In this document: positions 18,591 through 21,105 of the stretch, in pieces | Position numbering within the stretch: the first letter of the stretch is position 1 | Layout of the letters: the number at the start of each line of letters is the position of its first letter | Assembly: GCA_947441075.1 (NCBI GenBank) | Contig: CANESK010000006.1 | Location: forward strand, 1-43,303 | Direction: 5' to 3' | DNA length: 43,303 bases | Source: Verrucomicrobia subdivision 6 bacterium | GTDB lineage: Bacteria > Verrucomicrobiota > Verrucomicrobiia > Methylacidiphilales > Verrucolacustridaceae | The notes under the pieces: generated by a model | Told to the model about the DNA's origin: nothing | Databases searched by the model: none | What the model saw: only the letters and a program-made list of their open reading frames with translations | Translations under genes and position numbers: made by a program

Positions 18591-19384
18591 AACTGGCAAT
18601 GATCGGCGCGGGGCGGATGGGCGGGACGATTGTACGAATGTTGCAGAAGGAGGGATTGTGGAGTTTGGAGGTGTGCGAACCGAATTCGAAAGGGAGGGAG
18701 GCGTTGAGCAAAGAGATGGGGGCGGGGGTAAAGTTTGTCGAGAAGGTGGAGGAGGTGAGAGAGGCGGAGGTGATTTTGTTGGCAGTGAAGCCAGCGATGT
18801 TGAAAGAGGTTGCTGGATGGCTGCAGAGCAGAAAAGGTTCGTACCTTTTGATTTCGATTTTGGCTGGGGTGACAACGGAGAGGTTGGGCAAGGAGGTTGG
18901 GGAGAAGGCGCGGGTGGTCCGGGCGATGCCGAATCAGGCTTTGCGGGTGGGGGAGGGTGTGACCGCGCTGTGTGTGGGACCTGGGGCGAAGAAGGAGGAT
19001 ATGGAGATTGCGCGAAAAATTTTTGCGGCGGGTGGGTATGTGTTGGAGATTGAAGAGGAGCAGATGGATGTGGTGACGGCGTTGAGTGGGTCGGGCCCAG
19101 CGTTTATGGCGAAGTGGGTGGAGGAGTTGGCGGATGCGGCGGTGAGGGCGGGGTTGACGCCGAAGGCGGCGGTGGAGTTGGCAGCGAGAACGATGTTGGG
19201 GACGGGGGTTTTGCTGGTGCGGGAGGGGATTAAGCCTGGAGAGTTGTGTGCGGCGGTGGCGAGTCCTGGGGGAACGACCGAGGCGGGGTTGAAAGTTTTG
19301 CAAGCGGGTGGGTTGGGCGGGCTAGCGGAGCAGGCGATGGAGGCGGCGATCCGCAGGGCGAAGGAGTTGGCAAAAGGCGGATAG
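18587..19384 (+). CDS. proC: Pyrroline-5-carboxylate reductase
   Basis: GAGRMGGTIVRML, VRAMPNQAL, ALSGSGPAF, SPGGTTEAGL; ATGA overlap with apaG. Confidence 0.94.
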   Translation: MKLAMIGAGRMGGTIVRMLQKEGLWSLEVCEPNSKGREALSKEMGAGVKFVEKVEEVREAEVILLAVKPAMLKEVAGWLQSRKGSYLLISILAGVTTERLGKEVGEKARVVRAMPNQALRVGEGVTALCVGPGAKKEDMEIARKIFAAGGYVLEIEEEQMDVVTALSGSGPAFMAKWVEELADAAVRAGLTPKAAVELAARTMLGTGVLLVREGIKPGELCAAVASPGGTTEAGLKVLQAGGLGGLAEQAMEAAIRRAKELAKGG

Positions 19385-19509
19385 GAAGCATTCGTCACGC
19401 AAAGGACGCAAAGGTTGAAAAAAGGGGGAAGGTGAGAATGTAGTTTTGAAGTTCGAAGCTTTCTGGCAAGGGGAAATGCGGGTATGATTTTAACTCATTC
19501 GGGCCGTAG

Positions 19510-19528
19510 CCCCGACAGGAGTACGGGG
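19510..19528. repeat. Mini-palindrome 1 (CCCCGACAGGAGTACGGGG)
   Basis: CCCCG/CGGGG hairpin inserted in the tRNA-Pro half copy. Confidence 0.7.
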
Positions 19529-19537
19529 CAGGCACAG

Positions 19538-19555
19538 CCCCGATAAGAATCGGGG
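19538..19555. repeat. Mini-palindrome 2 (CCCCGATAAGAATCGGGG)
   Basis: CCCCGAT-AAGA-ATCGGGG hairpin closely similar to mini-palindrome 1. Confidence 0.7.
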
Positions 19556-19631
19556 TAGACTTAGTAGTGCGCTTGTTTCGGGCACAAGGGATTTTGAAGT
19601 GTTTAATCTTTCGGGAGGGTGGCGAAAGGGA

Positions 19632-19637
19632 TATAAT
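19632..19637 (+). promoter_or_regulatory. Candidate -10 box (TATAAT) of tRNA-Pro
   Basis: TATAAT 11 bp before the tRNA 5' end; no convincing -35. Confidence 0.45.
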
Positions 19638-19648
19638 ACTAATTCATT

Positions 19649-19722
19649 CGGGCCGTAGCACAGCTTGGTAGTGCGCTTGTTTCGGGTACAAGAGGTCGTG
19701 GGTTCAAATCCCACCGGCCCGA
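19649..19722 (+). tRNA. tRNA-Pro(CGG)
   Basis: Acceptor CGGGCCG/CGGCCCG, anticodon arm CTTGT-TTCGGGT-ACAAG, T-arm GTGGG-TTCAAAT-CCCAC; CCA not encoded. Confidence 0.95.
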
Positions 19723-19806
19723 TGATTTTCCGAAGGGAAAGCAAGGGCGGTCAATCTAATCTAGCCGGAGGCGAAAGAAGATTAGGTAGGGCCGATAGTC
19801 CCTTGG

Positions 19807-19816
19807 ACTTCGAAGT
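19807..19816. repeat. Perfect 10-bp palindrome ACTTCGAAGT in structured intergenic sequence
   Basis: Self-complementary, with a further CGAAGT about 20 bp downstream. Confidence 0.5.
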
Positions 19817-19893
19817 AACGAGTTTGCGGAACGAAGTAGGCCCCATTGGCCGATAAAGCGATTGATCCCGCGTCTATAGTTAGTGGGCTAGGT

Positions 19894-21105
19894 TTAGAAA
19901 AGCTGCAGGCGACCAGCAGAAAAGTTTACCGGGATGGGAGTCATGTTGGCGTTGCACTTGGGATGAGACTGTAACTCCTCGGCTAAGTCCTGGCTGACGA
20001 AGATCTTTTCCACGTGAAGGGTATTGGGGATGAACATCCAGCGTTTATCTCCAAAGCGCTCACGGATCTTGACGACGATTTCCTCGTCGTCCTTAAGGGT
20101 GCAAGGAATGGCCATGCGCTGCATGTCCCCTGTGGTGAAAGCGTTGACGAAGGTCTTCTGTTCGTCGATCGAATCGCGGAGGCGGCGAGTGATAAAATCA
20201 GCCAGACCTACGCCGAGGGCGTTGCCTTGGGCCTGAGGAGAAAGACCGAGGGCGGCGATCGTCTTTATCGTAGGTTGAGTGAGATCCTCAAAGCCGTGGA
20301 CGCCACGCCGCCCGATGACATTGGTGTCCATCCCTGTGCCGCTGTAGGTTTTTCCGATTTCATCGACAATGAGGACGTTAAGGTTATCGCATGGGAGGGC
20401 AGGAAAGTAGTGTCGATGCCGTTTCAGGAGGGCGGGTTCGTCCTTTAATATCCTTTCGCCTGGGAGGGCGTGGATCTCGGCGGTGGCATCGAACCCGTCT
20501 TCGAGTAGGGCGAGGCCAGCGAAGATCTTCCCCGATTGGACAAGAAGGGAGCCCATCTCCTCGAGGATGCGGGGCATACGATCGGGTCGAGCGGAGTGAA
20601 AAGTCTCGGCAGAACGGATTTTGCCCATACCGACGACCATCATTTTTGTGAGGCCACTTTGGACGGGACCCGAGAAGCAGGTATGGAGTTTGATTCGGTT
20701 GAGGATGAGGACACCAGCTGAATCGAAGCAGTGGCGGTCCATCCAGACTTCGCCCGAATCGACCGAGCCGACTTTGACGCACTCCATGCTGGAGCGGATC
20801 TCAAGGCCCGTGGCGGCGAAAGTGAGGCCAAGAGATTCGACCATCTTTTGTTGGCCTGTGGCGGTGGCACCGTTGTGGGAGCCCATGGAGGGGACGAGGA
20901 AGGGTTTGGCTCCGTGCATACGAAGCCAATCGCCGACCGCTTTGGTGATGGGAACTAGATTGGAAATTCCGCGACTCCCGGCAGTAATGGCGACATCTCC
21001 TTGCGGCGGTTCTTTGCCCATTTGGTCGAGGGCGCGGTGGACTGCCTTGGGCACGTCTTGAATCGGGGCAGAGATTAACTTTTGATCGATCTGAAAAACG
21101 TTCAT
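19894..21105 (-). CDS. DUF2088 / LarA-like (nickel-dependent lactate racemase-related) protein
   Basis: [12 protein letters not shown]...[19 protein letters not shown] motif and overall length of this family. Confidence 0.75.

Follow-up and report, generated by a model that had tools for sequence, protein, structure and literature searches.

Two members of a dispersed mini-palindrome family in a broken tRNA-Pro(CGG) half: a probable case of insertion into a decaying gene copy

Upstream of an intact tRNA-Pro(CGG) gene of a Verrucomicrobia subdivision 6 bacterium, we found a broken 5′ half of the same tRNA that is interrupted by two short hairpins of a genome-wide family. This feature is probably a partial tRNA-Pro(CGG) copy undergoing decay, without a function of its own, that was hit by a REP- or SDR-like mini-palindrome. 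The dispersal of the hairpin, its nesting, its purine-G neighbors, its residence in partial tRNA-Pro and tRNA-Lys copies and the decay of the half in one relative (G010) are direct observations. The stretch of DNA analyzed (the window; 43,303 nucleotides) is contig 6 of a MAG (1.73 Mb, 91% complete), labelled G000 in the following.

A broken tRNA-Pro(CGG) half precedes the intact gene

The features described here lie on the + strand downstream of proC (P5CR domains), whose product shows 93–96% identity to proteins of four MAGs, three from Verrucomicrobia subdivision 6 and one from an uncultured Verrucomicrobia. A promoter region (P1, 19438..19499) with a TATGAT box at 19483-19488 and 81% identity to its counterpart before the sole tRNA-Pro(CGG) gene of G012 precedes the broken half (19500..19588), which comprises the acceptor 5′ strand, the D-arm and the anticodon arm. 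Its 44 tRNA-derived nucleotides are interrupted twice: CGGGCCGTAG (19500-19509) is followed by insert 1, CCCCGACAGGAGTACGGGGCAGG (19510-19532), then by CACAG (19533-19537), insert 2, CCCCGATAAGAATCGGGGTAGA (19538-19559), and CTTAGTAGTGCGCTTGTTTCGGGCACAAG (19560-19588). Insert 1, the hairpin CCCCGACAGGAGTACGGGG with the tail CAGG, stands after T8-A9-G10 of the tRNA, and insert 2, CCCCGATAAGAATCGGGG with the tail TAGA, after A14-G15. The intact gene (19649..19722) lies 60 bp further on behind its own promoter region (P2, 19589..19648; TATAAT at 19632-19637) and provides a paralogous empty site for both hairpins.

The sequence is as described in the first-pass annotation, which had noted a 5′ half with two D-arm hairpins upstream of the intact gene. 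Both of its ~22-nt palindromes are present, but insert 1 is 23 nt long, its last G having been assigned to the tRNA. The reported lack of the T-arm and 3′ acceptor was confirmed: neither follows the half, and an Rfam search with permissive filters revealed no tRNA there. With a cloverleaf including both elements as the test, only 19649-19722 received a tRNA score at this locus. Half and intact gene are 93% identical over a 29-nt D/anticodon stretch and 71% over a 55-nt stretch comprising promoter and gene start. The broken half folds more stably than expected by chance (z = –3.8), and weak Rfam matches (mascRNA, plastid UTR) were far under the cut-off. A split tRNA was considered and appears unlikely, given the intact gene alongside. 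The 403-aa open frame adjoining the tRNA (19894-21105, – strand) matched nothing in Pfam at E ≤ 0.001.

The inserts belong to a dispersed hairpin family

The first-pass annotation had also regarded the two palindromes as related elements, and the genome search bears this out: a degenerate hairpin pattern matched 24 sites in the same genome, compared with three in a reversed control, and for hairpin 2 only 0.06 chance matches are expected in the window at ≤3 mismatches. The unit is an 18-nt stem-loop, CCCCGA-N6-TCGGGG, with a tail of about 4 nt (e.g. CAGG or TAGA), ∼22 nt in total. The pattern CCCCGAN4-8TCGGGG occurs 23–58 times per genome in G000, G001, G003, G010 and G012, that is, in five of 21 species of the genus, and 0–4 times in the 16 other congeners (control 0–2). 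The stem-based pattern used to collect copies presupposes a paired outer stem; the hairpin is exactly 18 nt long in 79 of the 91 copies read, and the seventh stem pair varies, being CG 56 times and TA 10 times. The main tails are TAGA, CGCA and CAGG. In the 64 copies that could be oriented by their tail, the left neighbor is AG in 37 and GG in 22, counts that are descriptive because the tail itself sets the orientation.

Only 11 of 52 copies lie within stop-free frames of ≥200 codons, compared with 86% of random positions. The family is thus multi-copy, palindromic and mainly extragenic, as are REP-like elements in the broad sense. Hairpins also nest within hairpins, as in GCCGG[CCCCGACGCCGATCGGGGCAGG]TCGGGG and others. 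Matching of flank pairs revealed a site, GGTCTCTCCGAG[CCCCGATGGGAATCGGGGCGCAGACGCAG]AACGCC, that is filled in G000 and G012 and, with a variant, in G001, whereas G010 and G003 have it empty; its flanks are repetitive and its orthology is not proven. AG or GG stands on both sides of the hairpin at some sites only (GTAG..AG in G011 and the CCGAG..AG empty-site pair), inconsistently across sites, and no match indicative of a target-site duplication was enriched at the expected offset among the hairpin copies. A genome-wide indel comparison of G000 with chunks of G010 and G001 gave no clean 22-nt indel, with too little intergenic DNA aligned.

Small repeated motifs (CCCGCAACTGCGGG, CACGCGTCAGCGTG, TCACGCAAAGGACGCAAAGG and CGCAGACGCGGG) recur beside hairpins at L101, L102, L108, L141 and other loci, which suggests composite repeats. 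At the start of contig G002:C59, three CCCCGAC hairpins stand 110–130 bp apart (positions 161, 271 and 401), a spacing that resembles the 120-bp tRNA-Lys array of G003. Contigs G006:C46 and G016:C30 also contain hairpins. In G030, from another family of the order, a palindrome of 16 nt, CCCCGACAGGTCGGGG, is abundant over many contigs, often near their ends; matches of this genome to the hairpin pattern were rejected as the same family because they belong to this different, mostly 16-nt one.

The locus in related species

Comparison of the locus in close relatives recovered this half, its two inserts placed identically, in G001 (L026) and G010 (L027), the contigs of which have the same sequence as CAMCDO010000050.1 and CANIEM010000041.1. 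Since the arrangement recurs in two further MAGs, an assembly error is unlikely. The insert sequences differ among the three genomes, the stems varying between species at one site, and in G010 insert 2 is unpaired and is ruined together with part of the D-arm. Pairwise differences amount to 1–3 of 60 positions in P2, 2–8 of 44 in the half and 2–7 of 22 in the inserts. By these counts the half and its hairpins drift faster than P2, which is what a promoter in use beside an idle half would lead one to expect.

In the DNA examined from G003, G012, G006, G016, G020 and G008, the CGG gene has no upstream half, although these MAGs are fragmentary, so that a missing copy may reflect a gap, and G003 and G012 were covered only around matches. 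The decay in G010 and the absence from G003 and G012 weaken the earlier idea that the half acts as a decoy. Because a tRNA-Pro(CGG) half free of hairpins was not found in any relative examined, we infer insertion into the half from the paralogous intact gene. A second tRNA-Pro(CGG) of G000 (L103, G000:C96, 4339-4408), at the end of a 4.4-kb contig that also holds three of the hairpins, has a different T-stem (CCCGGG). Downstream of tRNA-Pro(CGG) in G003 (L029) and G010 (L027), the tRNA 3′ end and the region behind it are repeated in tandem slightly more than 100 bp on; therefore, 3′ pieces are duplicated at these genes besides 5′ halves.

Two promoter families, recognized by sequence similarity between loci, precede the tRNA-Pro genes. 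Type alpha is found before the single CGG gene of G003, the GGG gene of G000, the halves of G001, G010 and G011 and a partial GGG copy in G006; type beta precedes intact genes that follow a half, including P2 (97–98% identical in G001 and G010), and the single genes of G012. In G001 and G010 the alpha promoter of the half is thus of the type found at the single gene of G003 and only 43–44% identical to the beta promoter of the intact gene. The half of G000 has a beta-like promoter, closer to the single-gene promoter of G012 than to its own P2 (63%). The earlier proposal of a tandem duplication of promoter plus half therefore holds insofar as P1 and P2 are related; the pattern across relatives indicates a recombination mosaic instead of a single such duplication. 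The shared TTTTGAAGT, taken as a mark of the duplicated unit, does not serve as one, the matching place in G012 reading TTTGGAAGT. P2 may derive from another tRNA-Pro locus.

Hairpins in other partial tRNA copies

The first-pass annotation missed that the same hairpin resides in other partial tRNA copies of the genus. Upstream of tRNA-Pro(GGG) in G010 (contig C65), a degraded copy contains a hairpin 2 identical to that of the window together with what is left of hairpin 1. In its anticodon region (L144, ~1110-1145) this copy holds another hairpin, GGACGGCTCGGAGAGTCGTCC, which is unrelated. The distant species G011 has only two pattern matches, one of which lies after GTAG within a lone tRNA-Pro half, at the tRNA site used by insert 1 in the window, G001 and G010. 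The partial Pro(GGG) copy of G006 has no hairpin.

In four species (G003, G013, G014 and G017), 3′ halves of tRNA-Lys carry a hairpin in place of the anticodon arm. G003 has two tandem partial tRNA-Lys(CTT) copies, in which GAGCAG and the hairpin are followed by variable loop, T-arm and acceptor 3′ strand; the other three have one copy each, ∼25 nt downstream of the intact tRNA-Lys, and in G017 its hairpin is the sole pattern match of the genome. These copies keep a 6–7-bp stem, with a hairpin loop that varies, and a G-C or G-U 27-43 pair. With one mismatch in G014, each agrees with the tRNA of its own species at the positions peculiar to that species, a pattern that suggests gene conversion or selection. 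The motif GACTCTT is common to the G014 copy and the anticodon arm of the tRNA. The Lys copy does not occur in most congeners, and in G010 no more than a remnant is left.

In a single scan of a larger genome set, a hairpin was present in every non-gene tRNA match between 25 and 60 nt; the partial Lys and Pro copies, 29–31 nt long, all carried one. The other non-gene matches were two of tRNA-Arg (62–65 nt), a tRNA-Pro match at the end of a contig and a Pro fragment of 24 nt with no adjoining hairpin. A rough chance estimate, not a formal test, based on ∼230 hairpins and on ∼2 kb of DNA in partial tRNAs as against ∼4 Mb between genes, predicts ∼0.1 residence in partial tRNAs, whereas three or more different positions in tRNAs are occupied. 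A full-text literature search for hairpins in bacterial tRNA copies found none.

Comparison with known repeats and a candidate mobilizer

Cyanobacterial small dispersed repeats (SDR) are dispersed, palindromic sequences of ∼21–27 nt with no coding capacity. They reportedly also insert into genes of structured RNAs, rnpB among them. PMC3733652 refers to Elhai et al. (2008) for these repeats. The hairpin of the window is likewise short, dispersed and palindromic; it comes from another phylum, and the likeness is one of description.

REP elements carry GTAG or CGTC tags and occur with RAYT transposases; the verrucomicrobium Opitutus terrae has them in abundance (PMC3733652). Like them, the window family consists of short palindromic intergenic repeats in a genome with a Y1_Tnp gene; unlike them, it has an 18-nt hairpin without a fixed GTAG or CGTC tag, nests in itself and is lodged in partial tRNAs. 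Left neighbors are AAAG, TAAG, GCGG, CCGG, CGAG and others, and GTAG precedes only four of the 64 oriented copies; three of these lie in tRNA-Pro pieces, and the last is most likely in the tRNA-Pro half of G010. The main tails do not contain CGTC as an unpaired end motif. Judged by its tags, the family thus falls outside both the GTAG and the CGTC class of REP.

A 201-aa Y1_Tnp ortholog (86–100% identity) is present in exactly the five hairpin-rich species. In the DNA examined around any detected Y1_Tnp gene, no flanking hairpin of the kind that marks a RAYT gene was found; GTGTCAGACACGTGTCTGACAC lies upstream of the genes of G000 and G010. Since the five species look like one clade, judged from the closest ProC identity, and flanking hairpins are absent, the co-occurrence is an association only and does not identify a RAYT as the mobilizer.

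Two organellar systems also resemble the family. Yeast mitochondrial GC clusters (GC42) are GC-rich, AG-flanked palindromes that merge, shuffle and vary in presence (PMC4478555); they are about twice as long and have short direct repeats on both sides, whereas AG is duplicated at some sites only of the window hairpin. Sponge mitochondria contain repetitive hairpin-forming elements in intergenic DNA and in the RNA genes rnl and rns (PMC2800124), likewise short inserted hairpins, again likened by description. By analogy, the hairpin family would work like REP, SDR or mitochondrial GC-cluster repeats.

Discussion

We propose that recombination among tRNA-Pro loci and their promoters would leave spare tRNA pieces beside an intact gene. 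An insertion would be tolerated in a spare piece and lost in a sole working gene; therefore, spare pieces would accumulate and preserve insertions. The element would insert just after a purine-G without a clear target-site duplication, probably by means of a trans-acting enzyme, for which a Y1/HUH transposase is a candidate. Against this explanation count the failure to find, in the relatives examined, a tRNA-Pro(CGG) half free of hairpins, the lack of hairpins beside the lineage-matched Y1 transposase gene and two features of the Lys copies: their paired stem and their match to their own tRNA across wide divergence exceed what plain decay predicts, and the anticodon arm is replaced rather than simply interrupted.

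In a bolder reading, partial tRNA copies would be the hairpin's home, tRNA-borne hairpins (after A9-G10, A14-G15 and A26-G27) being old in the genus, kept as tRNA-like RNAs and the source of the dispersed mobile repeat of 22 nt, whose expansion took place in one clade of five species. We consider this rather doubtful.

A functional structured RNA, such as a tRNA-like decoy, a leader or a processing signal transcribed with or ahead of the tRNA, in which the hairpin stands in for the D- or anticodon arm, would explain why the same arrangement is found at several Pro and Lys loci of distant congeners, why the Lys copies maintain the stem, despite a variable loop, and the 27-43 pair and why the only match of G017 is such a copy. 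However, neither hairpin 2 nor the D-arm has survived intact in G010, the half is absent from G003, G012 and others, the Lys copy is missing from most congeners and reduced to a remnant in G010, and concerted evolution with the adjacent tRNA accounts for the conserved T-arm with no need for selection. A scan of 19380-19900 for terminators and σ70 promoters detected no terminator, no strong σ70 match for P1 or P2 and no match supporting a role. Such a function is unlikely, but the recurrence of the Lys copies and their intact stem keep it in view.

It is quite improbable that the hairpins were born in place by fold-back or template-switch errors during replication of spare tRNA DNA, with no insertion. 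The Lys copies do exchange one hairpin for another, with GACTCTT in both the copy and the anticodon arm of G014, and stems vary between species at one site; however, the same sequence, e.g. CCCCGACAGGAGTACGGGG, is present at many unrelated loci of several species, and this recurrence together with the fixed 18-nt length identifies the hairpins as a dispersed family. Least of all do we expect the scar of a small integrated element, whose beta promoter and tRNA 5′ end would have entered and rebuilt the tRNA and pushed the former promoter and half upstream, for although the alpha and beta promoters of G001 and G010, a net insertion of ∼150 nt and the hairpin-free alpha-partial-beta-tRNA order at Pro(GGG) in G006 fit it, no integrase or element was seen, the hairpins are left unexplained and recombination among paralogous tRNA-Pro loci is simpler.

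Under the preferred reading, insertion into a decaying partial copy, spare tRNA pieces appear to be a record of the landing sites of a very small repeat element. That this element keeps turning up in partial tRNA copies may reflect a preference for tRNA-like DNA or a survivorship effect, and hairpin-bearing tRNA fragments are not necessarily functional RNAs. How dispersed repeats of ∼20 nt move is an unsettled question, for which the intact neighbor gene offers a built-in empty site; with filled and empty states supplied by close species, the insertion rules of a bacterial mini-palindrome may be tested by comparison.
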